The translations under genes were made by a program, and so were the position numbers. The notes under the pieces are model-generated. The model was not told the DNA's origin, searched no databases, and saw only the letters and a program-made list of their open reading frames with translations. Positions 453-64,000 of a stretch of DNA of 64,000 nt are shown piece by piece. The DNA comes from Mya arenaria (taxonomy: Eukaryota > Mollusca > Bivalvia > Myida > Myidae): the NCBI RefSeq assembly GCF_026914265.1, contig NC_069131.1, positions 4,375,501 through 4,439,500 of the forward strand. Reading direction: 5' to 3'. Position 1 is the first letter of the stretch; each line of letters starts with the position of its first letter.

Positions 453-14128
<13,676 letters not shown>

Positions 14129-21257: not shown

Positions 21258-24200
21258 TCAGTAGTCTTTGGGTCTCATTCTCCATATAACGATGGTCAGT
21301 GCTATACAAATGATGAGCAGAACTGCGGCCAGCGCTCCGACAGAATATGTCGCAATCTGGAACTCATTTTCTGACAGCGGTTTGGATGTGGTGGTGGTTA
21401 GAACTGAAAAATATAAAGACAGCTACGTAGTTCAGTAATACTATTATTGAAAATTATTATTGAAACATACAGAAATGGTATCGGTCTAATAGAAAGTCTA
21501 AACAGCTAACTAACTATTACTAATCAGAGAAGGTTTGAACACATATACACATATACACATATACACCATATACTTCAAAGCTTGATCTGTTTCGAAAAAT
21601 TTATAAGTTAACATTGTATATAGCTATGATAATACAATTATCTTGCTAATGCACACATCACAAATCAGTGGTAAGGAATTTGTGATATACCGGTATATGT
21701 ATATCTGCATTGTACATTATTATGCGAAATTAAATAGATTACAGAGGAGCAAGTGTCTGAAAGCACACCATACATGCACATTCAAGATTTAAAAATGTAT
21801 ATGTTTGATTGCAACTGCATGTTAACTACACCGTGGTGAAAGCATGGTCGCAAATCCTTCAAGCACAATTTAAATTAGTACAAAGTATAAAGATAACAGT
21901 TTTATAGTTGATTAGTCAATAAGAGGTATGGATCAGAAGTATTACAGACTAGTACAGAGCTACTTAAAAACTCACTTTGGCCCCTGTTTGTGATAGACAG
22001 GAAATATTCCCGCCAGAAGACATATTGCCGTTGTCGAAAGTTCACCCTGTTTTGTGTCTTGTTTCCAATCTCGAGATAACTGTGGTTTTGTAGGTTATAC
22101 TCCAGCCAAGGTATGTTACCAAAGTTGCTCACTGTGTATTTACTATCTGTAGGGTTCCTGTATAAGCAAGCATTCAAGTTTTCTGTGTGGATATTGTACA
22201 ATGATGTCACCGTTAAGAATTGAATGCATCACAGTTATATTAGAAGTTTTTGTTAAGAATTGAATGCATCACAGTTATATTAGAAGATTTTGTTAAGAAT
22301 TGAATGCATCACAGTTATATTAGAAGATTTTCTTAAGAATTGAATGCATCACAGTTATATTAGAAGTTTTTGTAAAGAATTGAATGCATCACAGTTATAT
22401 TAGAAGATTTTGTTAAGAATTGAATGCATCACAGTTATATTAGAAGATTTTGTAAAGAATTGAATGCATCACAGTTATATTAGAAGTTTTTGTAAAGAAT
22501 TGAATGCATCACAGTTATATTAGAAGATTTTGTTAAGAATTGAATGCATCACAATTATATTAGATTTTGTTAAGAATTGAATGCATCACAGTTATATTAG
22601 AAGTTTTTGTAAAGAATTGAATGCATCACAGTTATATTAGAAGATTTTGTTAAGAATTGAATGCATCACAGTTATATTAGAAGATTTTGTTAAGAATTGA
22701 ATGCATCACAGTTATATTAGAAGTTTTTGTAAAGAATTGAATGCATCACAGTTATATTAGAAGATTTTGTTAAGAATTGAATGCATCACAATTATATTAG
22801 ATTTTGTTAAGAATTGAATGCATCACAGTTATATTAGAAGTTTTTGTAAAGAATTGAATGCATCACAGTTATATTAGAAGATTTTGTTAAGAATTGAATG
22901 CATCACAGTTATATTAGAAGATTTTGTAAAGAATTGAATGCACCACAGTTATATTAGAAGCTTTTGTAAAGAATTGAATGCATCACATTTATATTAGAAG
23001 TTTTTCTTAAGAATTGAATGCATCACATTTATATTAGAAGTTTTTCTTAAGAATTGAATGTATCACAGTTATATTAGATTTTGAAATCAACAACATTTTT
23101 AAGGCTATAAACTAGATGACAGTACATGTATCTTTTCTCTTGACATTTTTAACACTGAACATACAGAAAAACAAACATAGTTCACCATTCTAATAATGCA
23201 ATATTAACATTTATAGCAATGACAAATATGTCTCAACATTCTTGAAAAGTATTATACAAAGAAAAGGTATAAACTGTGAGATACCCTGAGTTGGAGAAAT
23301 TTGTGAAGAGGCTGATCATGTATTCACTGATGTTCCTGTCCGTGAAGTCGATGTCGTACACCTGACGTGGGTAGACTCCGAACAGGTCCCTGTATGTCTG
23401 GTTGATGAACGGGTAACCAAACACGTACTGCAGCTCCTGACCATGGGCAACACCTGGACAATAACCAGTACATCGAAATAAGTTTCCTTTTAAACTTGCT
23501 GGGGTGGAAGGGTATAGAATATCGTTAACCTCCCTTTGATTAGAAATGTACATATAAAAGCAATCTTAAGAACCAATATCATGTACATTCCTTCATAAAA
23601 TTCATGATCATTTGCATACTGTGAATCATATAATTATTACTTGGCACGAAATTTTGTGGTTTTACAAAAATATGCATTTTCATGGTGTTGTTTTAAATTA
23701 CATTGTATATGTAATATAATTCTGACATTGGTTATAATACATGAACTCACACATGTAAAATATTTAATAGCAACAATTAGCATTTTTGTGACTTGTACTT
23801 AAACTGAAACAGAGCCCATCCACTTATTTTAACTTGTATTGCAGATACATATGTATGTACACCCTATTGAAGAGATTCTGAGATTGCAGTACATATATCT
23901 TTTCTAACAATAAATAGATCTATCAGAAGGCACATACCTCTCCAGGTCGGGACATAGTCGTATCTTGACTTGTAGTTAAAAAGATACATATAGGTTCTGT
24001 TGTAGAGATTTTGGGAACGCAGTGTCTCGTCCATCCCTGTACCAAACAGGTAGTCTGACATCATCTGGAAAAGTATGATTATGCCTTATTAATGGCGATT
24101 ATGAACTAAGATAATATGAATATTGACACATTGTAAAAACGTACCTTTAGATATATTGCAAATCATAGTTTATTAATAAAATACATAATGAATTTGGTTG

Positions 24201-27200
24201 TAAATTTATCAAGAGCGATGTCGAGTAAAAGCAAACGATTGTCTTCCCTTGTTTTTTCAGTAAACAAGGGGCAATACTCTATAAGTCAGAGTTATTCCCC
24301 TTCCTATAAATATGCATACTGTCTCTGGTAACATGCATACAAAGTTTTATTTGAATATCATGGAAGGGATTGAGCATTTTATTGTTTCTTATAGGTAAAT
24401 AGTTTTCTGAACATGAAATTCAGCATTACTTGAAAGCTTCTTGGAGCAGGGCTGAACTATTTTTTATGATCAGCATCAGCCACAGACTCGGGACATTTGC
24501 TCTTCTATTTTCTCCTAGACTTGCAATGTTTGGCAATCTGTTTCTTTCATTTTTCAATCAAATGTTACACACATGCTTATGTCAGTATCATACTGACTTT
24601 CATTATGCCACTGACTACTTACATCCATCATCTCCTGGCGTACCCAGGAGTAGTTGCTGCGTTGTGGCCAATACGAGTACTCGAACCGGAGAGCCTCCAG
24701 GGCGTTCACCATGTCCTTCACATTCTGGTCACGCAGGAACTCCAGCAGGATGTTGTCAAATTGAGTTGGTGATAGGCCCTCTTGGAGTGATGGCATGTTT
24801 GCTGGGAGAAAAGAATTATGTTTTATACAAATGTAAAGTAGCTGGGCAAGAGTAAAATATGTTGTCAGAGTCGATAGTCATCTGGACCTGTGGGAGCAAA
24901 TGGTATGTCCGTTAGGATGAGAGAAAGAAATGGGAAAATACACATTGTCAAGAACGTACAATAATTAAAAATAATAAGAAAGTAGTGACTAATCTTCATT
25001 CAGATCTTACATTTCAACCTGTGTTGGTGTCAGTCCCACCTTTAGTGTCACCACATTGGCTTGGGTCAGATTATGTATATATTACTAGTAGGCGAAGAAG
25101 CAGAGTAATTATAAGTATGTTGCCAAACTAGGTTGGCATATGGCTCTCTTGCTAAGGATGGCATGCTAGGGAGAAAGAAACATATTTTATACACAATCAG
25201 AAGCAGAAATTCAGACAACTGTCAATGTCAGTATTAAAATTTAGTACCCTATATTTGCACTCAAGCGCAGGGTAGTGACATTATTAATATGTTATTATTA
25301 TCAAAGGGTAAGAAGCTATTTAAGGGTGATCGGCATTATAAGAATGATTGACTTCTTTCTTTGGTAAAAGAGAGAATAAAATCACTAAATGATTAGAAAT
25401 CATGATAAATCTTACGTATAAAATATGATCCATCATCCTTGGTGAGTCCTCCCATGACTCGTAGCTTCTGGAAACGTCCCTGTGAACGCATATCTCTGGG
25501 CTGGTCGGTCATAAAGGCATACTGTGAGCCCTGGAATGGGCCATCAACAACTGGACTCCATGGGCTCCCTACCGTACCCTCCTAGAATGGGCGATAGTGG
25601 TATATTATAAATCTAAATCTAGCTCCAATATCACAGGCGGTTCTGTCAAAAAGGTATATTGTGAGCCCATTGACCACCAGGATCTCAGGCGGTTCTGTCA
25701 AGAAGGTATATTGTGAGCCCATTGACCACAAGGATCATAGGCTGTTCTGTCAAGACGGTATATTGTGAGCCCATTGACCACCAGGATCACAGGCTGCTCT
25801 GTCAAGAAGATATATTGTGAGCCCATTGACCACCAGGATCACAGGCTGCTCTGTCAAGAAGATATATTGTGAGCCCATTGACCACCAGGATCACAGGCCG
25901 TTCTGTCAAGAAGGTATATTGTGAGCCCATTGACCACCAGGATCACAGGCTGTTCTGTCAAGAAGGTATATTGTGAGCCCATTGACCACAAGGATCACAG
26001 GCCGTTCTGTCAAGAAGGTATATTGTGAGCCCATTGACCACCAGGATCACAGGCCGTTCTGTCAAGAAGGTATATTGTGAGCCCATTGACCACAAGGATC
26101 ATAGGCTGTTCTGTCAAGACGGTATATTGTGAGCCCATTGACCACCAGGATCACAGGCTGCTCTGTCAAGAAGATATATTGTGAGCCCATTGACCACCAG
26201 GATCACAGGCTGCTCTGTCAAGAAGATATATTGTGAGCCCATTGACCACCAGGATCACAGGCTGCTCTGTCAAGAAGATATATTGTGAGCCCATTGACCA
26301 CCAGGATCACAGGCTGCTCTGTCAAGAAGGGATATTATGAGCCAATTGACCACCAGGATCACAGGCTTCTCTGTCAAGAAGGATATCATGAGTCCATTGA
26401 CTACCAGGATCACAGGCGGTTCTGTCAAGAGGGATATCATGAGTCCATTGACCACCAGGATCACAGGCGGTTCTGTCAAGAGGGAGACCATTGACCACCA
26501 GGATCACAGGCGGTTCTGTGAAGAGGGATATTATGAGACCAATGACCACCAGGATCACGGGCGGTTCTGTCAAGAGGGATATCATGAGTCCATTGACCAC
26601 CAGGATCACAGGCGGTTCTGTCAAGAGGGATATTGTGAGACCATTGACCACCAGGATCACAGGCGGTTCTGTGAAGAGGGATATCATGAGCCCATTGACC
26701 ACCAGGATCACAGGCGGTTCTGTCAAGAGGGATATCATGAGTCCATTGACCACCAGGATCACAGGCGGTTCTGTCAAGAGGGATATCATGAGCCCATTGA
26801 CCACCAGGATCACAGGCGGTTCTGTCAAGAAGGATATCATGAGTCCATTGACCACAGGATCACAGGCGGTTCTGTCAAGAGGGATATTATGAGACCCATG
26901 ACCACAAGGATCACAGGCTGCTCTGTCAAGAGGGATATCATGAGTCCATTGACCACCAGGATCAAAGGCGGTTCTGTCAAGGATATTATGAGACCCATAA
27001 CCACAAGGATCACAGGCTGCTCTGTCAAGAGGGATATCATGAGTCCATTGACCACCAGGATCAAAGGCGGTTCTGTCAAGAGGGAGACCATTGACCACCA
27101 GGATCACAAGCGGTTCTGTCAAGAGGGATATTATGAGACCCATGACCACAAGGATCACAGGCTGCTCTGTCAAGAGGGATATCATGAGTCCATTGACCAC

Positions 27201-30200
27201 CAGGATCAAAGGCGGTTCTGTCAAGAGGGAGACCATTGACCACCAGGATCACAGGTGGTTCTGTCAAAAGGATATTATGAGACCATTGACCACAAGGATC
27301 ACAGGCAGTTCTGTGAAGAGGGATATTATGAGACCATTGACCACCAGGATCACAGGCGGTTTTGTCAAGAGGGATATTGTGAGCCCATTGACCACCAGGA
27401 TCACAGGCGGTTCTGTCAAGAGGGATATTGTGAGACCATTGACCACAAGGATCACAGGCCGTTCTGTCAAGAGGGATATTATGAAACCATTAACCACCAG
27501 GATCACAGGCTGCTCTGTCAAGAAGGTATATTGTGAGCCCATTGATCAGAAGGATCACAGGCGGTTCTGTCAAGAAGGTATATTGTGAGCCCATTGACCA
27601 CAAGGATCACAGGCTGCTCTGTCAAGAAGGTATATTGTGAGCCCATTGACCACCAGGATCACAGGCTGCTCTGTCAAGAAGGTATATTGTGAGCCCATTG
27701 ACCACCAGGATCACAGGCTGCTCTGTCTAGAAGGTATATTGTGAGCCCATTGAACACCAGGATCACAGGCTACTCTGTCAAGAAGGTATATTGTGAGCCC
27801 ATTGACCACCAGGATCACAGGCTGCTCTGTCAAGAAGGTATATTGTGAGCCCATTGACCACCAGGATCACAGGCTGCTCTGTCAAGAAGGTATATTGTGA
27901 GCCCATTGACCACAAGGATCACAAGCTGCTCTGTCTAGAAGGTATATTGTGAGCCCATTGACCACCAGGATCACAGGCTGCTCTGTCTAGAAGGTATATT
28001 GTGAGCCCATTGACCACAAGGATCACCGGCTGCTCTGTCAAGAAGGTATATTGTGAGCCCATTGACTGCCAGGATCACAGGCTGCTCTGTCAAGAAGATA
28101 TATTGTGAGCCCATTGACCACAAGGATCACAGGCCGTTCTGTCAAGAAGGTATATTGTGAGCCCATTGACCACAAGGATCACCGGCTGCTCTGTCAAGAA
28201 GGTATATTGTGAGCCCATTGACCACCAGGATCACAGACTGCTCTGTCAAGAAGGTTTATTGTGAGCCCATTGACCACAAGGATCACAGGCGGTTCTGTGA
28301 AGAGGGATATTATGAGACCATTGACCACCAGGATCACAGGCTGCTCTGTCAAGAAGGTATATTGTGAGCCCATTGACCACAAGGATCACAGGCTGCTCTG
28401 TCTAGAAGGTATATTGTGAGCCCATTGACCACCAGGATCACAGGCTGCTCTGTCAAGAAGGTATATTGTGAGCCCATTGACCACAAGGATCACAGGCAGT
28501 TCTGTCAAGAGGGATATTGTGAGCCCATTGACCGCCAGGATCACAGGCTGCTCTGTCAAGAAGATATATTGTGAGCCCATTGACCACAAGGATCACAGGC
28601 TGCTCTGTCTAGAAGGTATATTGTGAGCCCATTGACCACCAGGATCACAGGCTGCTCTGTCAAGAAGATATATTGTGAGCCCATTGACCACCAGGATCAC
28701 AGGCGGTTCTGTCAAGAAGGTATATTGTGAGCCCATTGACCACCTGGATCACAGGCTGCTCTGTCAAGAAGGTATATTGTGAGCCCATTGACCACCAGGA
28801 TCACAGACTGCTCTGTCAAGAAGGGATATTGTGAGCCCATTGACCACCAGGATCACAGGCGGTTCTGTCAAGAGGGATATTGTGAGACCATTGACCACAA
28901 GGATCACAGGCCGTTCTGTCAAGAGGGATATTATGAAACCATTAACCACCAGGATCACAGGCTGCTCTGTCAAGAAGGTATATTGTGAGCCCATTGATCA
29001 GAAGGATCACAGGCGGTTCTGTCAAGAAGGTATATTGTGAGCCCATTGACCACAAGGATCACAGGCTGCTCTGTCAAGAAGGTATATTGTGAGCCCATTG
29101 ACCACCAGGATCACAGGCTGCTCTGTCAAGAAGGTATATTGTGAGCCCATTGACCACCAGGATCACAGGCTGCTCTGTCTAGAAGGTATATTGTGAGCCC
29201 ATTGAACACCAGGATCACAGGCTACTCTGTCAAGAAGGTATATTGTGAGCCCATTGACCACCAGGATCACAGGCTGCTCTGTCAAGAAGGTATATTGTGA
29301 GCCCATTGACCACCAGGATCACAGGCTGCTCTGTCAAGAAGGTATATTGTGAGCCCATTGACCACAAGGATCACAAGCTGCTCTGTCTAGAAGGTATATT
29401 GTGAGCCCATTGACCACCAGGATCACAGGCTGCTCTGTCTAGAAGGTATATTGTGAGCCCATTGACCACAAGGATCACCGGCTGCTCTGTCAAGAAGGTA
29501 TATTGTGAGCCCATTGACCGCCAGGATCACAGGCTGCTCTGTCAAGAAGATATATTGTGAGCCCATTGACCACAAGGATCACAGGCCGTTCTGTCAAGAA
29601 GGTATATTGTGAGCCCATTGACCACAAGGATCACCGGCTGCTCTGTCAAGAAGGTATATTGTGAGCCCATTGACCACCAGGATCACAGACTGCTCTGTCA
29701 AGAAGGTTTATTGTGAGCCCATTGACCACAAGGATCACAGGCGGTTCTGTGAAGAGGGATATTATGAGACCATTGACCACCAGGATCACAGGCTGCTCTG
29801 TCAAGAAGGTATATTGTGAGCCCATTGACCACAAGGATCACAGGCTGCTCTGTCTAGAAGGTATATTGTGAGCCCATTGACCACCAGGATCACAGGCTGC
29901 TCTGTCAAGAAGGTATATTGTGAGCCCATTGACCACAAGGATCACAGGCAGTTCTGTCAAGAGGGATATTGTGAGCCCATTGACCGCCAGGATCACAGGC
30001 TGCTCTGTCAAGAAGATATATTGTGAGCCCATTGACCACAAGGATCACAGGCTGCTCTGTCTAGAAGGTATATTGTGAGCCCATTGACCACCAGGATCAC
30101 AGGCTGCTCTGTCAAGAAGATATATTGTGAGCCCATTGACCACCAGGATCACAGGCGGTTCTGTCAAGAAGGTATATTGTGAGCCCATTGACCACCTGGA

Positions 30201-33200
30201 TCACAGGCTGCTCTGTCAAGAAGGTATATTGTGAGCCCATTGACCACCAGGATCACAGACTGCTCTGTCAAGAAGGGATATTATGAGCCCATTGACCACA
30301 AGGATCACAGGCTGCTCTGTCAAGAAGGTATATTGTGAGCCCATTGACCACCAGGATCACAGGCTGCTCTGTCAAGAAGGTATATTGTGAGCCCATTGAC
30401 CACAAGGATCACAGGCTGCTCTGTCAAGAAGGTATATTGTGAGCCCAATGACCACCAGGATCCCTGGCTGCTCTGTCAAGAAGGAATATTGTGAGCCCAT
30501 TGACCACCAGGATCACAGGCTGCTCTGTCAAGAGGGATATTATGAGACCATTGAACACCAGGATCACAGGCTGCTCTGTCAAGAGGGATATTATGAGACC
30601 ATTGAACACCAGGATCACAGGTGGTTCTGTCAAGAGGGATATTGTGAGCCCAATGACCACCAGGATCACAGACTGCTCTGTCTAGAAGCTATATTGTGAG
30701 CCCATTGACCACAAGGATCACAGGCAGTTCTGTGACGGGATATTATGAGCCCATTGACCACCAGGATCACAGGCTGCTCTGTCAAGAAGGTATATTGTGA
30801 GCCCATTGACCACAAGGATCACAGGCTACTCTGTCAAGAAGGTATATTGTGAGCCCAATGACCACCAGGATCCCAGGCTGCTCTGTCAAGAAGGTATATT
30901 GTGAGCCCATTGACCCTAGGATCACAGGCTGCTCTGTGAAGAGGGATATTATGAGACTATTGAACACCAGGATCACAGGCGGTTCTGTGAAGAGGGATAT
31001 TATGAGCCCATTGACCACAAGGATCACAGGCTGCTCTGTGAAGAGGGATATTGTGAGCCCATTGACCACCAGGATCCCAGGCAGTTCTGTGAAGAGGGAT
31101 ATTGTGAGCCCATTGACCACAAGGATCACAGGCGGCTCTGTTAAGAAGGTCTATTGTGAGCCCATTCACCACCAGGAAGAGAACTCCCTGGATCTGTTTA
31201 AATATTCCATGTAATCCAAATATCATGTACATGTATTTCTAACATGTCTCATTTTATTCTGTGTAAAAGTCTCATTTAAAGTTCTCTTTATCTTGTATCT
31301 TGTGTTAAAGTCACAGGATTTTGAGTCTTTAGTCTACTTGTGTTTAAAACTTTAAATGTATATTGACAATAAACAAGCCTCTTGTAACCACCCTTAAATG
31401 CCAAGGGTTTATGATTGCAGGGTGATCTAATTTAATAGATTAATCATTAATGGGCACCAAACAAACTTTATTTTGTATCTCAAAAACCAGAAAACTTGAG
31501 TCACTAATATGAAAATCTTTTTTGAGTCATAACATCATATATCCAACCAGTTGCTATGAATTTAAAAAAGAGGTGAAAATATTCATACAATAAAGGGCCC
31601 TAACTCCTAAATGATTAAAGCGATTTCCATGGCTATCGAACTTGATCAAGGTATTATGGTTACAAACATGTGTTAAAAGTTTGGTGAGGATTGGACAAAC
31701 AGTTTTCAAGAATTAGATCGGAAACAATCTTCGGGACGTATTTTTCAAGTCTTTTTTTGCAAATAAAGGGCCGTAACTCCTAAATGACAAAAGCGATTTC
31801 CATGGCTATCGAACTTGATCAAGATATTATGGTCACAATCATGTATGTAAAGTTTGGTGAGGATTGGACAAACGGTTTTCAAGAATTAGATCGGAAACAA
31901 TCTTCGGGACGTACGTACGTACGTACAGACAGGCAGACGTACGTACGGACAAGGGCAACCCTATATGCCGCCACTTTGTGGGGGCATAAAAATCAACACC
32001 TACCCTAACCCTGACCCTAGCTGAGGCATTCACAATCTCATCGGCACTGCGGTATTCCTGCAGACACCTGATCAACCGATAATTATCATTGGGTGGACAC
32101 CCTGTCTCACGAGCAAGCTCCGAGGCATAATAACTTGCATCGTCACTGCTCGGCAGAACGGCCCACTGGGTTCGATCAGAACCTGACATCATAATGGCCT
32201 GATGGAACAAATCTGGAAAAGAAACAATTATATCCATATTATTTAGAAATGAAACTCTTATGAGTTATATGTAACATTTATTTGATGTTCCTTGAAAAGT
32301 TTTAGCATACAGTGGCCCGACTGACTCACTGAAAATACCCCAAATTCCATTAACTTCGAATTAAGCAATACTCTGTTCACTTGGATTTTTTAAACCATAG
32401 GTGGAAGTATGGACCTGGTTTATAGGTCCGTGGTGGAAGTATCAGAAGGTACCCCTAGTGGGGGCGCACCCACAACCTCTTTGGCAACAGACTGACCCTC
32501 TACCACTAGACCACTCGCATGATTAATATGCATTAACATGACAACATGGCAATAAGTGTTAGTATGAAAAGTAAGTTTTGAATTTTGGAATATCACAATA
32601 AAAGGGACACAACTCCCAATGGAATTTTGGAGGTAATATTGAATTCACTACCTGTAGGTCAATGAAAGGGACTCTACTCTTACATAGTAATTTATTAATA
32701 GAATAACAGTAGAATAACATTTTATAATAATAGGTAAATGATATATAGTGAGTCATGCAAATGTTTTATTCACAAATAATTTAATTATTATCAAATCTTC
32801 TGCCATACAGAGTTATTTAATGGAATAGAAGACAGACGTTTAATTTTTAATATTGAAATATTACCAAATGTAAAATTGTATAGACTATACTATTTCTAAT
32901 TCATTTATTATATTAATTGAAAAGTAATGAAATTTAGTTACACCCTTAAATTCCAGGGTTCTCAAGAAGTTTCGGTTGAACCGTCTCAAATAGTAAAGTA
33001 AACGACCAGCTTCTACTTATTCTACTGAAAATTCATTTAGTTTTCCAAATTTGAACCGGCCCTATTGCCATTTGAACCGTCCATTTTGCCCGGTAGCCGG
33101 TTCTTATTGAGAACACTGAAATTCGCACAACTTTCATTTTTGACTGACTTGAATGTACTTTGTGTTAAAAATATGTATTAATAGGTTGTCATATTTATGA

Positions 33201-36200
33201 TGATTTAAAGTGACACTCTTATTCAAAATTAATTACACATGAACATTGTATAACAAACATAACTTTTGAGAGATAACCCTTTAATAATTTCTAAATAATG
33301 CATTTATGGAAAATATAAATTACTGATAACAAAATGGTAACCGTGTATTAAAAAGCTGAAAACTCAAAAATATTTAATGATTGGCGAGTGCTAAAGATTT
33401 ACTCTAATGTACTATCGTCTCATAAGGTAGAAATACCATGTTTCCTACACCTTCATTCCAAATTTAACTCGGTATTCTTCATAAGAACCATTGTTTTCGA
33501 CATTTATTAATCCTTTTCGGTATATTAGAACATTTGTATACAATGGGTCAATCTTTTTTGAGAGTAAGTCTGCTTATATTGTATAAAATCTCAATTGAGT
33601 TATGTTGAAATGTCGGTTCAAGGGTCATATTGGCCTACCTCAGACATACAATTTTATATATCATTTCTATGAATAAATGGAGGCTAACTGTTTGTTTCAG
33701 TGTAAGATTGCAATATATTACACCAAGTGAGCACCAAAGCTAACTTTCTTGAGGCCTGTTCAAAAGGTAAACTATTTGGCGATCTTACAATGAAACTAAC
33801 AACTTTTCTTTGTATTATATGCCTAAAAAATATCAAATGTCATTTATTTTCAGAAAAGTGCACCAAATTGTATGTAAACCTAACATTATTTCAGAAATTT
33901 ATAATAAAATAGTGTCCTAGCAGTGTGAGCGGTTGTATTTGGACACAAAAAAGAGCTTATATTTCAAAACAGTAAGAACTCAACTGTTTAATACAGTGAA
34001 ATATGAATTTGATTTCATTGAAAAATCCCTATTAAGAACAGGAAAGCATAATAATAAAATGTTTTTCTTCTTCTTTTCCTTCTCCAATATAACAACCTGG
34101 CTGAATCTTGAGCGTTTAAATCTGAAACTTTGCTAACGCCACTTACTGTAGGATCTTGGAGACAGTAAATGTAGGCCCACACTTGCAGCTCCAGTACTGT
34201 GACCAAATATGGTCACCATGTTAGGATTACCACGGAAACTGCGAATGTTCTCTTTCACAAATTCCAGGGCTCTGTGTTGGTCCCACAAACCATAGTTACC
34301 CGGGGAATATTGATCGGCTGTGCTCAGGAATCCTGTAAAAAGGAAAAACATGTATACACAATTATTGAATGTACTAAATTGCAGCATCAAAAATACATTG
34401 GGCTTATAAAACACTGTCATCAGAGGAAAGGAAATATCCATATAAAAACATTCTTGTTTTTTATCTTTACAGTAAAGCTGCACTCTCACAGATGGACCGT
34501 TTTGACACCTTTTAAAAAAAAGAACATTTTTGTCTAAGAATGAGCTCTTTTTCGTTAATGTTTGAGAACCAGTGATGTTGACTCAGCTGACAAGGTATTG
34601 GATTGCTTTTTTATATTTACGTTCAAAATTGATGTTTTATGCCGAAAAGCTCAATTTTCATAAAGCGTTAGGGATGCTTTGGGCCACAAAACTTCAATTT
34701 TCGAACATAAATATTAAATACTGCGATCTGATGCTGTGTCACCAGTCTTATATCACTAGTTTCCAGATATTAACGTAAAGAATGGTTCATTCCAAGACAA
34801 AAGAATAAAAAGTTGTCAAAAAGGTCAATCTGTGAGATTGCAGCTATAATGCTAACAAACTGACAAAGATAATGTGATCTTAATCTTGAGTAAACCACAC
34901 AATTTCTCACCCAGAGCATTAAGCCTGTAGTTGAATGTAACGACAACAACCCTGCGTTCAGCTAGGAAGATCCCTGGGTACTGTTGGGAGGCCCCCATTG
35001 TCCACCCTCCCCCGTGGATAAACACCATCACTGGAAACAGGTTAGGATTTGCGACTGGCTGTTCATCTGTCGCCTGTCAGGAAAAAGTCATACATGGTCA
35101 CTGTGCATGTTTTAAGGTCCTTAATGGGGTTAAACATGGAACATTGGGGTGAAAATTGCTGAGTACTCAAGATTGTATTAACTTTAAAATAGGCAGAAAA
35201 GGTTAAAGAATGTGATAATTAGTTAATTTTTAAAGAATACACGGATTTTTCCAAACAGAATTGCCATGGGGGACTCCAATCATTTGATATAGCAAATTAA
35301 TAATAAAACAAGGAAAGTATTTACAGAAATTTTTGGAAGAAAATAATGTTTTAAAATTGAGCTGAATTGAGGCCTCAAATTGGTAAGAAAAAGAAACACT
35401 GTTTTTTTTTAAAACTTTCAAAGTTTTTTCTGAAATATAATGCCATCCTTTTATTCCTTAAAGGTTCATTATCTCAGATATGTTACCAGCTAGAGAACTT
35501 CAGGGAGCACGTTATATATTCAACTTTAATGTGTAGTAAATATCAAAAAAATATATATCAACATTAAAGTCATGGAAGCCAGAATTAATGTTTTACCATT
35601 TTTGCACTGATTTAGTAATTTTATAAATTATAAGCAAGCACTTATCATAAGTATATTATTTATAAGCTAGTTACTTACATTGGGGGTAAAGATGTTCATG
35701 TAGAGGCAGTCCTCGCTGGTCGCTGCACGGCTGAAGCTGGGAACTGTCTGCTTCACAAACCATGGCAGCTGGGGACACGCTGGGCCATACTTGTCTGCCT
35801 TCCAAGTCCCAGTCCAAGAAGGCTTCTCTGGTTTCTAAAATGGTCATGTACAAATGGCATTTAAACATGTAGTAACTGACACCACTATGTACACTTGTAC
35901 AACTATCAATAAGTCTGAAATAAGGTCGAATAATTACATTAATTTCTTCTCCAACTTATTGTTATCCAGAATGCTGGATCTAAATGTCACTAGCAAACTA
36001 GGTTTTTATTGTCAGTATGAACTGGGACAATGACTAAATAATTATGATAAATATTGCAGTAAATTGATTCTGTTATTGCTGTTGATTTGTATTTGTAAAT
36101 GGGAAATGGGCTGTGTTTTTACCTTCCAGGAGGCCCCGCAGTGCCGGGTGAATGCGGTGGTTTTGTCTTAGCGCCAATAATAGCGGGAAATGGGCCTTTG

Positions 36201-37194: not shown

Positions 37195-40100
37195 GTAAAT
37201 CATATGGCTGTAGTGATCATTGCAGGGGGACACGTTCTAAAGCACTGTAGTTTATCAGTTGACCATATATCTTTATACTGGTGATCATAGCTGGGTGACA
37301 CGTTCTAAAGCACTGTAGTTTATCAAATGACCATTTATCTCTATCTTGGTGACCATAGCTGTGTGAAACATTCTAAAGCACTGCAGTTTATCAGTTGACC
37401 ATATATCATTATACTGGTAGTCATAGCTGGGTGACACGTTCTAAAGCACTGTAGTTTATCAAATGACCATATGTCTTTATACTGGTGATCATAGCTGGGG
37501 GACACGTTCTAAAGCACTGTAGTTTATCAGTTGACCATATGTCTTTATACTGGTGATCATAGCTTGGGGACACGTTCTAAAGCACTGTAGTTTATCAAAT
37601 GACCATATATCTTTATACTGGTGATCATAGCTAGGGGACACGTTCTAAAGCACTGTAGTTTATCAGTTGACCATATATCTTTATACTGGTGATCATAGCT
37701 TGGGGACACGTTCTAGAGCACTGTAGTTTATCAAATGACCATATATCTTTATACTGGTGATCATAGCTGGGTGACACGTTCTAAAGCACTGTAGTTTATC
37801 AAATGACCATATATCTTTATACTGGTGATCATAGCTGGGTGACACGTTCTAAAGCACTGTAGTTTATCAGTTGACCATATATCTTTATACTGGTGATCAT
37901 AGCTGGGTGACACGTTCTAAAGCACTGTAGTTTATCAGTTGACCATATGTCTTTATACTGGTGATCATAGCTGGGGGACACGTTCTAGAGCACTGTAGTT
38001 TATCAAATGACCATATGTCTTTATACTGGTGATCATAGCTGGGGGACACGTTCTAAAGCACTGTAGTTTATCAGTTGACCATATGTCTTTATACTGGTAG
38101 TCATAGCTGGGTGACACGTTCTAAAGCACTGTAGTTTATCAGTTGACCATATGTCTTTATACTGGTGATCAAAGCTGGGTGACACGTTCTAAAGCACTGT
38201 AGTTTATCAGTTGACCAAATGTCTTTATACTGGTGATCATAGCTGGGTGACACGTTCTAAAGCACTGTAGTTTATCAGTTGACCAAATGTCTTTATACTG
38301 GTGATCATAGCTGGGTGACACGTTCTAAAGCACTGTAGTTTATCAGTTGACCATATATCTTTATACTGGTGATCATAGCTGGGTGACACGTTCTAAAGCA
38401 CTGTAGTTTATCAAATGACCATATATCTTTATACTGGTGATCATAGCTGGGTGACACGTTCTAAAGCACTGTAGTTTATCAAATGACCATATATCTTTAT
38501 ACTGGTGATCATAGCTGGGTGACACGTTCTAAAGCACTGTAGTTTATCAGTTGACCATATATCTTTATACTGGTAGTCATAGCTGGGTGACACGTTCTAA
38601 AGCACTGTAGTTTATCAGTTGACCATATATCTTTATACTGGTGACCATAGCTGGGGGACACGTTCTAGAGCACTGTAGTTTATCAGTTGACCATATGTCT
38701 TTATACTGGTGATCATAACTGGGTGACACGTTCTAGAGCACTGTAGTTTATCAGTTGACCATATGTCTTTATACTGGTGATCATAGCTGGGTGACACGTT
38801 CTAGAGCACTGTAGTTTATCAGTTGAGCATATGTCTTTATACTGGTGATCATAGCTTGGTGACATGTTCTAAAGCACTGTAGTTTATCAGTTGAGCATAT
38901 GTCTTTATACTGGTGACCATAGCTGGTGGACACGTTCTAAAGCACTGTAGTTTATCAGTTGACCATATTTCTTTATACTAGTAGTCATAGCTTGGGGACA
39001 CGTTCTAGAGCACTGTAGTTTATCAAATGACCATATGTCTTTATACTGGTGACCATAGCTAGGGGACACGTTCTAAAGCACTGTAGTTTATCAGTTGACC
39101 ATATATCTTTATACTGGTGATCATAGCTTGGGGACACGTTCTAGAGCACTGTAGTTTATCAAATGACCATATATCTTTATACTGGTGATCATAGCTGGGT
39201 GACACGTTCTAAAGCACTGTAGTTTATCAAATGACCATATATCTTTATACTGGTGATCATAGCTGGGTGACACGTTCTAAAGCACTGTAGTTTATCAGTT
39301 GACCATATATCTTTATACTGGTGATCATAGCTGGGTGACACGTTCTAAAGCACTGTAGTTTATCAGTTGACCATATGTCTTTATACTGGTGATCATAGCT
39401 GGGGGACACGTTCTAGAGCACTGTAGTTTATCAAATGACCATATGTCTTTATACTGGTGATCATAGCTGGGGGACACGTTCTAAAGCACTGTAGTTTATC
39501 AGTTGACCATATATCTTTATACTGGTAGTCATAGCTGGGTGACACGTTCTAAAGCACTGTAGTTTATCAGTTGACCATATATCTTTATACTGGTGATCAT
39601 AGCTGGGTGACACGTTCTAAAGCACTGTAGTTTATCAGTTGACCATATATCTTTATACTGGTGATCATAGCTGGGTGACACGTTCTAAAGCACTGTAGTT
39701 TATCAGTTGACCATATATCTTTATACTGGTGATCATAGCTGGGTGACACGTTCTAAAGCACTGTAGTTTATCAAATGACCATATATCTTTATACTGGTGA
39801 TCATAGCTGGGTGACACGTTCTAAAGCACTGTAGTTTATCAAATGACCATATATCTTTATACTGGTGATCATAGCTGGGGGACACGTTCTAAAGCACTGT
39901 AGTTTATCAGTTGACCATATATCTTTATACTGGTAGTCATAGCTGGGTGACACGTTCTAAAGCACTGTAGTTTATCAGTTGACCATATGTCTTTATACTG
40001 GTGACCATAGCTGGGGGACACGTTCTAGAGCACTGTAGTTTATCAGTTGACCATATGTCTTTATACTGGTGATCATAACTGGGTGACACGTTCTAGAGCA

Positions 40101-41410
40101 CTGTAGTTTATCAGTTGACCATATGTCTTTATACTGGTGATCATAGCTGGGTGACACGTTCTAGAGCACTGTAGTTTATCAGTTGAGCATATGTCTTTAT
40201 ACTGGTGATCATAGCTTGGTGACATGTTCTAAAGCACTGTAGTTTATCAGTTGAGCATATGTCTTTATACTGGTGACCATAGCTGGTGGACACGTTCTAA
40301 AGCACTGTAGTTTATCAGTTGACCATATATCTTTATACTAGTAGTCATAGCTTGGGGACACGTTCTAGAGCACTGTAGTTTATCAAATGACCATATGTCT
40401 TTATACTGGTGACCATAGCTGGGGGACACGTTCTAAAGCACTGTAGTTTATCAAATGACAATATATCTTTATACTGGTGACCATAGCTGGGGGACACGTT
40501 CTAGAGCACTGTAGTTTATCAAATGACCATATATCTTTATACTGGTGATCATAGCTGGTGGACACGTTCTAAAGCACTGTAGTTTATCAGTTGACCATAT
40601 GTCTTTATACTGGTGATCATAGCTGGGGGACACGTTCTAGAGCACTGTAGTTTATCAGTTGACCATATGTCTTTATACAGCTGATCATAGCTGGGGGACA
40701 CGTTCTAGAGCACTGTAGTTTATCAAATGACCATATATCTTTATACTGGTGGTCATGGCTTGGGGACACGTTCTAAAGCACTATAGTTTATCAAAAGACC
40801 ATATATCTTTATACTGGAGATCATAGCTGGGGGACACGTTCTAAAGCACTGTAGTTTATCAAAAGACCATATATCTTTATACTGGTGATCATAGCTGGGG
40901 GACACGTTCTAAAGCACTGTAGTTTATCAAATGACCATATATCTTTATACTGGTGGTCATGGCTGGGGGACACGTTCTAAAGCACTGTAGTTTATCAAAT
41001 GACCATATATCTTTATACTGGTGATCATAGCTGGGGGACACGTTCTAAAGCACTGTAGTTTATCAAATTACCATATATCTTTTTACTGGTTAACAAAGCT
41101 CGGGGACACGTTCTAAAGCACTGTAGTTTATCAAATGACCATATATCTTTATACTGGTGATCATAGCTGGGTGACACATTCTAAAGCACTGTAGTTTAGC
41201 AAGTGACCATATTTAGCTATACTAGTGATCATAGGTGGGGGACACGTTCTAAAGCACTGTAGTTTAACGAATGTCCATATATCTAAATACTGGTGATCAT
41301 AGCTGGGGGACACATTCTAAAGCACTGTAGTTTAGCAAGTGACCATATTTAGCTATACTAGTGATCATAGGTGGGGGACACGTTCTTAAGCACTGTAGTT
41401 TACCAAATGA
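37195..41410. repeat. 68-bp tandem array, about 62 copies
   Basis: The unit contains CTGGGTGACACGTTCTAAAG, CACTGTAGTTTATCAGTTGA and CCATATATCTTTATACTGGT, then GATCATAG. Variants (AAATGACC for AGTTGACC, CTAGAG for CTAAAG, GGGGAC for GGTGAC) mark individual units. The edges decay gradually near 41160-41460. The same satellite recurs inverted at 49545-51140. Confidence 0.97.
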
Positions 41411-41459
41411 CCATTTTTACTTATGTTCATAGTTGATTGACACATTTTAAAGTGCTGTA

Positions 41460-49290: not shown

Positions 49291-49544
49291 TGCTACAGGT
49301 CTTTTTAGGTCAAACCTAAAAAAAATGAACATCTGTCAATTGACCCTCAGTGCATGAGAAAGTCACCTTTATAGAGATATATGGTAAGAGAATTTTATTA
49401 AAAAACAGAGCTTTTAAGGTAAAGTGGTCAAAATCCCTAATATACATGTGTAAGGTCAGTGGAATAAGAACACGGCTGAAGACAATATACTTCCTGTCAT
49501 ATCAAACAGTGTTATGTATAGATATGTACCGGGGTATATATAGT

Positions 49545-51140
49545 CATCTGTTAAACTACAGTGCTTTATAACGTGTCCCAAAGCTATGATAACTAGTATA
49601 GAGATAAATGGTCATTTGATAAACTACAGTGCTCTAGAACGTGTCACCCAGCTATGACTACCAGTATAAAGACATATGGTCATTTGATAAACTACAGTGC
49701 TTTAGAACGTGTCCACCAGCTATGACCACCAGTATAAAGATATATGGTCATTTGATAAACTACAGTGCTCTAGAACGGTTCCCACAGCTATGATCACCAG
49801 TATAAAGACATATGGTCATTTGATAAACTACAGTGCTTAAGAACGTGTCACCCAGCTATGATCACCAGTATAAAGATATATGGTCAACTGATAAACTAGA
49901 GTGCTTAAGAACGTGTCACCCAGCTATGACTACCAGTATAAAGATATATGGTCATTTGATAAACTACAGTGCTTTAGAACGTGTCCCCGGGCTATGACTA
50001 CCTCTATAAAGATATATGGTCATTTGATAAACTACAGTGCTTTAGAACGTGTCACCCAGCTATGATCACCAGTATAAAGATATATGGTCATTTGATAAAC
50101 TAGAGTGCTTAAGAACGTGTCCCCCAGCTATGACTACTAGTATAAAGATATAAGGTCAACTGATAAACTACAGTGCTTTAGAACGTGTCACCCAGCTATG
50201 ACTACCAGTATAAAGATATATGGTCATTTGATAAACTACAGTGCTTTAGAACGTGTCCCCCAGCTATGGTCACCAGTATAAAGATATATGGTCGTTTGAT
50301 AAACTAGAGTGCTTTAGAACGTGTCCCCAAGCTTCGATCACCTGTATAAAGATTTATGGTCATTTGATAAGCTACAGTGCTTTAGAACGTGTCCCCCAGC
50401 TTCAATCACCTGTATAAAGATATATGGTCATTTGATAAACCACAGTGCTCTAGAACGTGTCCCACAGCTATGTCTACCAGTATAAAGATAGATGGTCATT
50501 TGATAAACTACAGTGCTCTAGAACGTGTCCCCGAGCAATGACTACCAGTATAAAGATATATGGTCAACTGATAAACTACAGTGCTTTAGAACGTGTCCCC
50601 CAACTATGACTACCAGTATAAAGATAGATGGTCATTTGATAAACTACAGTGCTTTAGAACGTGTCACCCAGCTTTGATCACTAGTATAAAGATATATGGT
50701 CATTTGATAAACTACAGTGCTTTAGAACGTGTCCCCGAGCTATGACTACCTGTATAAAGATATATGGTCATTTGATAAACTACAGTGCTCTAGAACGTGT
50801 CCCCGAGCTATGACTACCTGTATAAAGATATATGGTCATTTGATAAACTACAGTGCTCTAGAACATGTCCCCAAGCTATGACTACCAGTATAAAGATATA
50901 TGGACGACTGATAAACTGCAGTGCTTTAGAACGTGTCCCTAAGCAATGATCACCAGTATAAAGATATATGGTCATTTGATAAACTACAGTTCTCTAGAAC
51001 GTGTCCCCGAGCCTCGGTCATCAGTTTAAGATATATATGGTCATTTGATAACCTACAGTGCTTTAGAATGCGAGCCCCAGCTATGACTACCAGTATAAAG
51101 CCAATTGTCATTTGTTTAACTACACTGCTTTAGAACCTGT
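49545..51140. repeat. 68-bp satellite, inverted copy of the 37.2-41.4 kb array, about 24 copies
   Basis: The units read ATAAACTACAGTGCTTTAGA, ACGTGTCCCCCAGCTATGA and CCAGTATAAAGATATATGGT, which is the reverse complement of the other array's unit. Copies are more diverged here. The edge near 51100-51160 decays as in the other array. Confidence 0.96.
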
Positions 51141-51539
51141 CGAGCATCTCTGGTGTCAAGTAATTAGAACGACTACTCAAGTAATAAGATAATTATATGG
51201 TCATTTATTAATCTATATACTGCTTTTGAAATGTTTTTAAAGCAAAAAAATCAATCATCATTAAAAAAAAAAGCCTGGACGGCATTTTAGAATGACTACA
51301 TGGGTACAGTACACCTAAATCAGTAAAATGGATGTACTTTGCTGAAAACAAATTGCAAGCATCAATAGTTAAATAATGCATAAAATTATGGAAATATTCA
51401 ATACCGTCTTCCCAAAATTCTTCGTACTAGAGTCAGGCACAAATTATCTTGCATTTCCAGCTCCTGGATTTTTCTTGAAGCCTCTTTCAAGGTTTTACAA
51501 ACCAGCATTTTTGTTCGCTGTGGTGTACTCATGTGTTTT

Positions 51540-52701: not shown

Positions 52702-52706
52702 ATATA

Positions 52707-55700
52707 CACGGTGGAGAACCCACGTGACTTATTTGGTAAAGTGCACGGCAACAAATGTCAACAAGTCTCGATTCAGGTAAGGTTTTTAAAGATAACTTTC
52801 TTAATATTTGGAGAATTTTTGTGAAATAAAGACCATAAACCCCGCATTTAAGAGCTCTATCCACGGTAATAAAGAACTTTCTCTAATATCCTAAAGTTTT
52901 CCTGAAAATCTTGACCAACTGATTTCTCAGAGTTGAAATATAATGCAAAGTACACGGCTTTTGACAAATCTATCGGTTTACCTCATGTAAGCCGTAAATA
53001 ATTCATACACAAATCTTATTTTAAAACGTTTTATGTATTTTATAGTTTTCAGCGTGTATTGTTTAACTTTTAGTTATTTCAAAGGTAAAAATGAACTAAA
53101 ACCAAATTGATAAAGTACACGGACATTTTAGGATGATAAAGTACACGGTCATTTTAGTTTATGTTTGAAAGTAGAGTGCGGTTTACAAACTAATCGTTAT
53201 ATAAGCATTTTCTATTCGTGAAGTCAGAATGTATATTGTTTAGTTTTTATCTAAGTTGTAACAATAAATTTTGCATTATAACGCACACCTAAATAACTAA
53301 ATATTTAGCAATCATATTTAATGAGGAGTTGAAAGATAGTCTATGGAATAATTTAAGAGAAAGTCTGCCATTATAAGTTCGATTACTTTAAAATATGCAG
53401 ATCAATACAGAATCATACATACATTTCTTCAAAAATCTGATAGTTTTACTTATAAATTACAAGCTGGACTGTCGGCGAATAAAACATCTCTGTAGTTAGC
53501 GGCCCGTTTGTGGTGATTATAAATTTCATGAATGTTCCTATTTTGATGTGTTTTGCACATCACAATTAGTTTATATATATTTCCACATTTAAAGCATATT
53601 GTTCATACCTTTCAGGTAACGCTGAATCTTTTATTTGGTTCAGTCTGAACAAATATTATCTGATCTACATCAGTAAAACTGCGGTCGTTCGAACAATACA
53701 GACAGGAACTCATTGTAAAGATGGAGGCTCGGAGTTAGATGGTAAACAGCAAGGAGGAATGAGAGCACACTATATTACCAACTTACAGGCTAGGACTAAG
53801 ACTTGAACATCTAGATAAGAGCTGAGCATGGAACATAAGAATGTTCTAGACTAAAGGCTGAAATGTGATTACAAAATAATTGTGTTTCAAAGCTTGCTGA
53901 ATTATATAAGATACATGCAGTTAAGAGTTTATAGGAAATAAATGGGAAAATGACAACAATGCATCTCTAAACCTTGTGAAAATGTTTTATGCTCAATCCG
54001 TTTTCATACTATTTTTACACTGCAATTTTTTCAGTACTGTAAGACAAACGAACATTTTGAAAGAGCACCATTTGGTAACAGTACGTTTTGCTATTTATCT
54101 TAATAAAATGTTAAACTCATGAAAACGTTATTTTAACTCGGCAACATACTGGAATACACTTCTAACTAGACCATTTTAATCTTTCAATGTGTCATGATTA
54201 GGTGTGTTTCGCCTTAAATTGCCTGCTGAGTCCAGATTTGAACTTGAATGCTGAGCGACACTAGACATTTGTGACGTGTCATACCCCTGTGTCTAGCAGA
54301 AATCTGGTCACTGAGATTGGTCGTGTCACCCAAGTTGAACCCACACACACCACAGGTTAGCTTCAATTGGCCGCTTTCGCGTCTTTCGTGTATCTTCAAG
54401 TCTTGCAAGGGCAGTTTTGCCACACTATTTGCAAACGTGCAACTTTGTCTCGCCGTGATTGCTGCACCTATAAAAAAGACATGTACTGTCACAAGTTAGC
54501 GAGAATTGCTGGCAATGTCAGTACTTGAATATAATTTATAAAAAACACTATATTACTGCCACGCAATGAGTGTTTGATTGTGTAATCAGCACCATAAAAC
54601 TGAACGACCCTATCCACTGAAACATGGACCACATTATTACCCGGTATGTGAAAAACGCCACCCCTAAAAAACGTTGAAAACACAGTCAGACGACGGCAAA
54701 TCTTAACCTCTACACGAGGGGAGTCGTAATAAAAGTATAACTGTTAGTATATTCTTATTTCTCGGCGAAAAAAATAAAGCTAAAAACTAACCTTTGTCTG
54801 TGTAAACACTTTCCCGCAAAAACGATGGCAATCGACCAGAATGCCTTCTATCGTGGTCTACTAGATGTTTTTTTATTTTTTTTTTGAAATGCCATTCCGC
54901 ATTCTTTGCATAAAGTCGGAGTCTTCATATTCTGAAATGAAACAAATATCACAAAATTATAAGTCTTTCAAATCAGCTAGCAATCGAAGACATTAAAAGT
55001 ACAAGAATACTTTTCTTTCTCAAAATTGACAAAATGAAGAGTTATTAAGCAGTTATGTGATACTGTTTACCATGTAAAATGAATACAAACACGTTTTACA
55101 TATACGATACGAAAAAGAAGTGGAACACCCTTTACAAAAACTTCAAGCCCTTTATATGTCAATTGCGAATATATTGTTAAAATACGGGACTGAATTTTAG
55201 TGTGATAACACATGTTTCCATGATTCATGAAAATGAGCCCATCATTTAGGCGACTCTGTCGGTCTAACTGTTAAAACGCGTTCATTCTTCCCTTGCCACT
55301 CCATTACAATGCGTCTTTTCAAACATGGAGCAATGTTCAATAATGAATTTGAAGAATAGAAATAATAAAAATATTTATAATAACTCGTTTTAGCACCAGC
55401 CATTGAAATAATGAGTATATACACTGAAGGTTGTAAACGACCGTGTACTTTATCAAACCTAAAATGTCCGTGTACTTTATCAATTTGGTGTTAGTTCATT
55501 TTCGACTTTGAAATAACTATAAGAAGTTCAACAATACACGCTGAAAACTTTAAAATACATAAAATTTGCTTAAAATAAGATTTTTGTATGAATTATTTAC
55601 GGATAGCATGAAGTAAACCGATAGATTTGTCAAAAGCCGTGTACTTTGCCTTAGATTTCAACTCTGAGAAATCAGTTGGTCAAGATTTTCAGGAAAACTT

Positions 55701-55887
55701 TAGGATATTAGAGAACGTTCTTTATTGCCGTGGATGGAGCTCTTAAATGTGGGGTTTATGGTCTTTATTTCACAAAAATTCTCCAAATATTAAGAAAGTT
55801 ATCTTTAAAAACCTTACCTGAATCGAGACTTGTTGACATTTGTTGCCGTGCACTTTACCAAATAAGTCACCTGGGTTCTCCACCGTG
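52707..55887. mobile_element. 3.2-kb element with ~445-bp terminal inverted repeats, CACGGTG ends and 5-bp duplication
   Basis: The left repeat (52707-53150) and the reverse complement of the right repeat (55439-55887) both begin CACGGTGGAGAACCCA and match over their full length with small changes. Homology stops exactly at CAC. Both sides are flanked by ATATA (52702-52706 and 55888-55892), a candidate 5-bp target duplication in AT-rich DNA. Each repeat carries four AAAGTACACGG-like motifs. The interior of 2.3 kb has no recognisable transposase. It contains a decayed zinc-finger sequence, so the element is non-autonomous. CACGGTG ends with 5-bp duplications are reminiscent of Transib/ProtoRAG elements, but that assignment is inference. 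Confidence 0.85.
54214..54931 (-). pseudogene. Decayed C2H2 zinc-finger coding sequence inside the long-TIR element
   Basis: An exon-like block at 54931-54792 follows an acceptor (ATTTCAG) and starts ATG AAG ACT, reading CKECGMAF. A run of ten A then seven A around a T breaks the frame; beyond the run, another frame shows a C2H2-like L-x2-H-x3-H tail. A second block at 54467-54214 follows TTTTTTATAG and holds finger-like pieces (LQDLKIHERRESG, LTCGVCGF) split by a frameshift and a stop. This looks like a broken C2H2 gene, though homopolymer sequencing error could explain the first break. No transposase motif was seen. Confidence 0.5.
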
Positions 55888-55892
55888 ATATA

Positions 55893-62504: not shown

Positions 62505-64000
62505 TACACTTACACTTCACTAGGTCCTTCTTGTATAAACTGACACTTCACTAGGTCCTATTTGTATAAACTGACACTTTACTAGGTTCTTCTCGTATAA
62601 ATTAACACTATACTGGGTCATACTTGTATAAACTGACACTTTACTAGGACCTACTTGTATAAACTAACACTTCACTAGGTCCTACTTGTATAAACTAACA
62701 CTTCACTAGGACCTACTGGTATAAACCGACACTTCACTAGGTCTACCTTGTATAAACTGACACTTCACTAACCCCTACTTGTATAAACTGACACTTCACT
62801 AGGTCTTCCTTGTATAAGCTAACACTTCACTAGGTCCTACTTGTATAAACTAAAACTTCACTAGGACCTACTTGTATAAACTAACACTTAACTAGGTCCT
62901 ACTAGTATAAACTAACACTTCACTAGGACCTACTGGTATAAACTGACACTTCACTAGGTCTACCCGTTTATAAACTGACACTTCATTAACCCCTACTTGT
63001 ATAAACTGACACTTCACTAAGTCTTCCTTGTATAAGCTAACACTTCACTAGGTCCTACTTGTATAAACTAACACTTCACTAGGACCTACTTGTATTAACT
63101 GAAACTAAACTAGGTCCTACTTGTATTAACTAACATTTCACAAGGACGTACTTGGATAAACTGACACTTCACTAGGTCTTTCTTGTATAAACTAGCACTT
63201 AACTAGGTCCTACTTGTATAAACTAACACTTCACTAGGGCCTACTTGTATAAACTAACACTTCACTAGGACCTTCTTGTATAATCTGACACTTAACTAGG
63301 TCCTACTTGGATAAACTGACACTTCACTAGGTCTTCTTTGTATAAACTAACACTTAACTAGGTCCTACTTGTATAAACTAACACTTCACTAGGGCCTACT
63401 TGTATAATCTAACACTTCACTAGGACCTGCTTGTATATACTGACACTTTACTAGGTCTTCCATGTATAAACTGACATTTCACTAGGTCTTCCTTGTATAA
63501 ACTAACACTTCACTAGAGTATACCTGTATAAACTGACACTTCACTAGGTCCTTCTTGTATAAACTGACACTTCACTAGGTCTTCTATGTATAAACTGACA
63601 ATTCACTAGGTCTTCCTTGTATTATCTAACACCTCACTAGGTTTTACTTGTATAAACTGACACTTCACTAGGTCCTTCTTGTATAAACTGACACTTCACT
63701 AGATCTTCCTTGTATTAACTAAAACATCACTAGGACCTACTTGAATAAACGGACACTTCACTAGGTCCTAATTGTATAAACTAACACTTCACTAGGTCTT
63801 CCTGGTAAAAACTAACACTTCACTAGGACCTACTTGAATAAACGGACACTTCACTAGGTCCTGCTTGTATAAACTTACACTTAGCTAGATCCTACTGGTA
63901 TAAACTAACGATCTACTAGGATCTACCTGTACAAACTAACGCTTAACTAGGACCTACCTGCATAAACTAACACTTCACTAGGACCTACTGGAATAAACTA
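62505..64000. repeat. 31-bp tandem array, about 48 copies, running off the window end
   Basis: The unit is TGACACTTCACTAGGTCCTA plus CTTGTATAAAC, with AACAC/GACAC, GGACC/GGTCC and CTTCCTT variants. Copies are moderately diverged and the array continues past base 64000. Confidence 0.96.

Follow-up and report, generated by a model that had tools for sequence, protein, structure and literature searches.

A high-copy, apparently non-autonomous DNA transposon family with long inverted repeats and CACGGTG ends in the clam Mya arenaria

Transposon ends that resemble recombination signal sequences (RSS), together with 5-bp target site duplications, bear on the origin of the V(D)J recombinase, and the protostomes known to have RAG-like transposons include molluscs (PMC7204232; papers are cited here and below by accession). 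An element of 3,181 bp on contig C10 of Mya arenaria, framed by two long inverted repeats that start at CACGGTG, raises the question of whether it belongs to this lineage or is moved by another kind of enzyme. A reading of the locus made from its sequence only had proposed kinship with Transib and RAG-like elements or, failing that, a different superfamily with convergent ends. We followed up this sequence-only reading in the window, by which we mean the whole 64-kb stretch analysed (C10:4375501-4439500), and in the 1.216-Gb assembly of 18 contigs. With a probability of roughly 90%, the element is one copy of a high-copy, non-autonomous family of cut-and-paste DNA transposons; the class of its enzyme is a more tentative matter. 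Its outer structure is as follows.

52702..52706, no strand assigned: left target site duplication ATATA, 5 bp, the modal length (28 of 37 copies)
52707..55887, no strand assigned: whole element, 3,181 bp, apparently non-autonomous
52707..53154, plus strand: left terminal inverted repeat (TIR), tip CACGGTGGAGAACCCACGTGACTTATTTGG, boundary set by aligning 30 genomic left ends
55435..55887, minus strand: right TIR, 93.8% identity to the left arm
55888..55892, no strand assigned: right target site duplication ATATA, 5 bp

The two arms align at 93.8% identity across 453 columns and each opens precisely at CACGGTG, with ATATA on both sides of the element (...ACATATA/CACGGTG...CACCGTG/ATATATT...), just as had been described from the window; the terminal sequence of the ends is CACGGTGGAGAACC. 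In an alignment of 30 left ends, which includes the window copy as L039, and four right ends, similarity sets in precisely at CACGG. The tips of the copies read are CACGGTG, except for one left tip (CACGGTT in L048). A search of the assembly with the first 37 bases, allowing up to three mismatches, recovered 500 ends (254 forward and 246 reverse) and none with a reversed control, which rules out a chance palindrome or an artefact. Collecting genomic copies, as the sequence-only reading had advised, thus bore out its placement of the termini, and the element is confirmed as real mobile DNA with exact ends at CACGGTG.

A search with the left arm returned 733 candidates from the assembly, 40 of which were scored and showed identities of 96-100%. 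Among the 500 ends, 100 were listed as exact ends, and a minority of these were read inside. Forty-six of the 100 form 23 convergent pairs less than 12 kb apart, with spacings of 412 bp in one pair, 2.96-3.21 kb in 16, about 3.7 kb in two and 5.2-9.4 kb in four. The 30 left arms, which are the best matches to the window arm and include the window copy as well as two pairs with shared flanks, differ by 3.2% on average and therefore point to a fairly recent amplification of the family. Across 25 sequences, with the window copy counted twice, the first 99 positions contain 16 minor-allele bases, whereas every later bin contains 34-87; such low variation at the tip is as expected if an enzyme must recognise it. 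A subfamily is marked by an insert of about 490 bp near element position 2305, which L093 and L094 have in common.

Target site duplications were read by seeking both ends of 42 distinct copies, the window copy included, and 37 were read at both ends. Left out were L041, which is interrupted by other sequence; L065, which switches to other sequence and whose right arm is absent from the fetched stretch; L057, where right-arm similarity stops 18 bp short of the tip; and L108 and L112, whose right ends are absent from the 600 bp fetched (for L108, an exact end is listed 3.9 kb from its left end). The duplication is 5 bp long in 28 of the 37 copies, among which L100 has the flanks of L098 and L102 those of L059, and 6 bp long in three (ATTGTT, TATAAT and TGGCTC); six copies (L043, L046, L051, L104, L110 and L133) carry no exact duplication, L133 agreeing at four of five positions. 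The 5-bp duplication proposed for the window copy, which on its own is compatible with 1, 3 or 5 bp, thus holds as the modal length, 3 of the 31 exact duplications being longer. That it might be a coincidence of AT-rich flanks was rejected, since other sites carry exact 5-bp duplications such as AGTAA, CGTAA, AGGAT and ACCAT.

Empty sites, which had been suggested as a further check, were recovered for a single insertion context. Queries made by joining the flanks (n = 32) gave six spanning matches at three loci, all of them for L059 and L102 with their common flanks. At these paralogous loci the repeat around the insertion recurs uninterrupted by the element, and the target is present once, save for a 1-base indel at the site. 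For the other 30 of the 32 queries, an empty site was not found in the sequence examined. The insertion sites are also biased in composition. The GC content of the duplications is 27%, and among 29 non-redundant sites a G follows directly on the right-arm side of the duplication in 20 (p 2e-9 vs 18%) and a C directly precedes its left side in 11 (p 0.009 vs 18%), a left-right difference in border base with p 0.03.

Furthermore, the arms contain a subterminal motif that is absent from the sequence-only reading, AAAGTRCACGG. It occurs four times per arm, and all eight of its occurrences in the window fall within the two arms:

52738..52748, plus strand: subterminal motif AAAGTGCACGG, one of four in the left arm
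52947..52957, plus strand: subterminal motif AAAGTACACGG, left arm
53112..53122, plus strand: subterminal motif AAAGTACACGG, left arm
53138..53148, plus strand: subterminal motif AAAGTACACGG, left arm
55441..55451, minus strand: subterminal motif AAAGTACACGG, right arm
55468..55478, minus strand: subterminal motif AAAGTACACGG, right arm
55637..55647, minus strand: subterminal motif AAAGTACACGG, right arm
55846..55856, minus strand: subterminal motif AAAGTGCACGG, one of four in the right arm

Because the motif ends in CACGG, the same bases with which the tip starts, its copies are putative binding sites. We also considered relatives in viral contigs, where the motif pattern matched 38 stretches with one match each; these were read as chance matches to 15 specified bases.

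No transposase had been seen inside the element, and the follow-up agrees: the longest stop-free interior frame has 93 amino acids in the window copy and 101 in the second full copy (C4). The interior contains two decayed exons on the minus strand:

54217..54495, minus strand: decayed C2H2 zinc-finger-like exon, the longest stop-free interior frame (93 amino acids)
54790..54967, minus strand: second decayed C2H2-like exon (MKTPTLCKECGMAF...), split across two frames in the window copy

The matching 93-amino-acid frame of copy L180 gave weak Pfam C2H2 matches (E 0.0024 and 0.005, below the curated cut-offs), and the unbroken second exon of the C4 copy matched zf-C2H2_3 at E 3.9e-4, likewise below the cut-off. 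C2H2 spacing can be followed in the broken minus-strand exons (CKECGMAF..., CDVCGFKLGDTTNL... and HKCLQCRSAFKFKSGLSRHVKAKHT), which may represent a captured or relic gene fragment, perhaps of host origin. With a usual length of about 3.1 kb, no long frame and these decayed exons, the element looks non-autonomous. It is like other long-TIR non-autonomous transposons (foldback-like, or resembling miniature inverted-repeat transposable elements) in its high copy number, its near-identical long arms, its internal gene fragment and the lack of a transposase frame, and differs from them in nothing essential.

A longer copy encoding a RAG1-like or Transib core, which the sequence-only reading had looked to, did not emerge from the four listed pairs spaced 5-10 kb apart. 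In each of these pairs (L131, L132, L134 and L135, of 5.17, 5.53, 8.68 and 9.36 kb), inserts have lengthened the 3.1-kb element. No DNA transposase was recognised in any of the inserts, and the pairs were rejected as autonomous forms. The insert of L131 is Penelope-like, with reverse transcriptase (RT) and GIY-YIG matches below the curated cut-offs, and that of L134 is a long interspersed nuclear element (LINE) with RT, endonuclease and GDSL frames. The LINE lies at 2654-7711 on the minus strand of L134 and has an open RT/endonuclease frame of 1,106 amino acids and a 579-amino-acid frame with a GDSL lipase/OSK-like domain. In the inserts of L132 (2,360 bp) and L135 (5,851 bp), the longest frames have 101 and 111 amino acids, and ten frames searched from the two gave no Pfam match below E 0.05 and one, below its cut-off, at E 0.072; a broken or intron-split transposase is possible there. 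Because a 10-base repeat of the element, GTATCTTCAA, borders the main insert of L135 on either side, this insert is, to judge by its borders, a nested insertion. It occupies 1724-7595 of L135 (5.85 kb), starts with CAATCGGAACTCCTCGGC, ends with GCCGAGTTGTTACGATTG and appears as a nested inverted-repeat element of another kind.

The remaining listed ends were approached through their interiors. Fifty-four of the 100 exact ends have no listed partner within 12 kb, mismatched partners lying outside the listing. Interior probes of 32 partnerless ends, out of 48 otherwise unexamined, found the main interior in 18 and a non-matching one in 14. One of these 14, L180, is the main family with an insert; six lose similarity at about 124, 190, 197, 255, 336 and 531 bp and, with six different break points, were taken for truncated ends; four are part of an apparent segmental duplication of 77-81 kb; and three are L184, L193 and L194, of which L193 is identical to L194. 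No autonomous copy thus came to light among the ends covered here, of which those read inside are a minority of the 500.

We also pursued a candidate for a related end, termed 'family B', after a CACGGTAGAG stretch within copy L046 that resembled a diverged end. The search gave 152 candidates, of which 40 were scored and 12 fetched. Of the eight loci that show the side in question, the query has CACGGTAGAG; five others have CACGGGAGAG, and CACGGGAGCG and CATGGGAGAG occur at one locus each. The candidate was rejected as the interior of another repeat because all eight loci share upstream sequence. This different repeat family comprises L046 at about 500-924 and its relatives L119-L130, some of them as inverted, closely spaced copies, and a CACGGGAGAGC stretch internal to it mimics the element end.

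From these observations we infer cut-and-paste chemistry by one enzyme that uses all these ends. A transposase supplied in trans would bind the long arms, probably through the conserved tip and the repeated AAAGTRCACGG sites, and would cut exactly outside CACGGTG. The tips would then be joined to a target cut with a stagger of 5 bp, or in some cases 6, with a preference for AT-rich sites that have a G just past the duplication on the right-arm side.

The most likely such enzyme, although we hold it at somewhat less than even odds, is a Transib-like member of the CACTA-Mirage-Chapaev-Transib (CMCT) clade, true Transib and RAG-like (RAGL) enzymes included. Several points weigh against the overall picture of a non-autonomous family moved in this way: no transposase was found accompanying the ends, so that the enzyme class rests on the tips and the duplication length; 6 of the 37 copies lack an exact duplication and are perhaps rearranged; the 6-bp duplications and the 27% GC of the duplications fit Transib poorly; and an autonomous copy may be hidden in the 400 ends outside the listing. 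More narrowly, within the Transib-like share, we tentatively put forward a true Transib or RAGL non-autonomous element that is moved by a RAG1-core transposase and has acquired its long arms as a secondary elaboration. Like Transib and the RAG-like elements (ProtoRAG, RAGL), the clam element has a heptamer-like tip starting with CAC, and CACGGTG at both ends fits the form CACWRTG given in the sequence-only reading at six of seven positions, position 4 being different. Protostome RAGL elements start with CAC and make 5-bp duplications (PMC7204232), as does the Drosophila Transib hopper, at 532 of 533 sites and with the target CCANTGG (PMC3276498), so that the modal 5-bp length follows the rule for both groups. 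The C before and the G after the five bases partly agree with that target, which is otherwise unmatched. Moreover, autonomous Transibs are typically few, down to one copy, or absent (PMC4411706), so a missing one is expected here and not finding it decides nothing. On the other side, the protostome RAGL terminal consensus CACTWMCAAACKTYKBB (PMC7204232) is unmatched past CAC, as the clam tip reads CACGGTGGAGAACCCAC, without AAA at positions 8-10. The duplications are rich in AT, with a length of 6 bp in 3 of the 31 exact cases, the TIRs of TransibSU measure 13 bp (PMC4411706) compared with about 450 bp here, and a survey across mollusc genomes found a single Transib element (PMC10294476). The RAG1 profile PF12940 matched nothing in the genome, but it matched nothing in the control genomes either. 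The kinship proposed at the outset is thus not supported so far, and the link to RAG and Transib stays a credible lead short of proof, with the odds somewhat against it.

A hAT5-like enzyme, from the hAT group that makes 5-bp duplications, is an unlikely rival on present evidence. The tip of the clam element resembles the end of Hermes; with C in third place it departs from YARNG, the form usual for hAT tips, which hAT5 may or may not keep. The hAT5 and hAT6 groups make 5- and 6-bp duplications (PMC12730594), both of which occur here, and hAT is common in bivalves, being among their richest superfamilies (PMC10294476). In addition, hAT enzymes use subterminal repeats, and the BED site of Hermes, AAG(T/C) (PMC10368747), can be compared with the AAAGT in each copy of our motif. 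However, Hermes has TIRs of 17 bp (PMC10368747), a small fraction of the arm length here, and the copies examined yielded no hAT transposase associated with the ends. The remainder of the probability falls to something else. An enzyme of the CACTA/EnSpm or Chapaev type is improbable: it would explain the CAC tips and the repeated short subterminal motifs, which are typical of CACTA, but Chapaev duplications are 4 bp long. The CMCT clade overall makes duplications of 2-5 bp and EnSpm makes 3 bp (PMC12730594), against 5 or 6 bp in the clam element, and a CACTA-type enzyme is largely excluded by this length. Hardly credible as the autonomous form is an element of giant size, about 77-81 kb, that shares these ends. 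Two convergent end pairs on C1, 77,435 and 80,798 bp apart, do share the sequence probed just inside both ends. Their outer flanks, however, are identical over the 49-57 bases compared and show no flanking duplication, and in one copy, of which 13 samples of 1 kb and two terminal pieces of 4.0 and 4.4 kb were read (about 21 of its 77 kb), there was no stop-free frame above 173 amino acids, the longest ones being repetitive, and a 129-amino-acid frame had no Pfam match. We rejected this form, and the locus reads as one segmental duplication holding two truncated ends. The apparent duplication of about 80 kb comprises C1:27090937-27168371 and C1:28384167-28464964, each copy with two truncated transposon ends.

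Also rather unlikely, if consistent with the observations, is an undescribed lineage of CAC-cutting transposases, related to the Transib/RAG branch yet distinct from it, that acts on arms of about 450 bp with AAAGTRCACGG sites. On this reading the enzyme would cut AT-rich targets with a stagger of 5 or 6 bp and would tell its two near-identical ends apart, G standing on the right side in 20 of 29 sites against C on the left in 11 of 29. Whichever enzyme is responsible, the hundreds of ends would provide a statistically strong record of its end recognition, stagger and target choice. Should it be a Transib relative, the family would exemplify an enzyme of that kind at work on long arms rich in motifs. 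Should it be hAT5-like or another enzyme, the CAC ends would be convergent and would caution against taking a heptamer with a 5-bp duplication as a sign of RAG ancestry. The literature examined, which did not extend to Repbase or most subscription papers, contained no description of this element, and the transposon family is likely new.

The remainder of the window contains genes and repeats of other kinds. An open frame of 544 amino acids at 16175-17809 on the plus strand has a B-box match (E 6e-5, just below the curated cut-off) and is a possible TRIM-like gene, and minus-strand frames at 31839-32264 and 34133-34582 match carboxylesterase (COesterase). Large tandem arrays occupy 19045-20230, 22212-23078, 25630-31177, 37213-41414, 49536-51141 and 62508-64000. 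The array at 19045 has a 79-bp unit and is 99% homogeneous, and since the 68-bp units at 37213 and 49536 are by eye near reverse complements, these two arrays are one satellite present twice in opposite orientation. One tRNA gene lies at 3158-3229 on the plus strand (Rfam tRNA, 68.5 bits).

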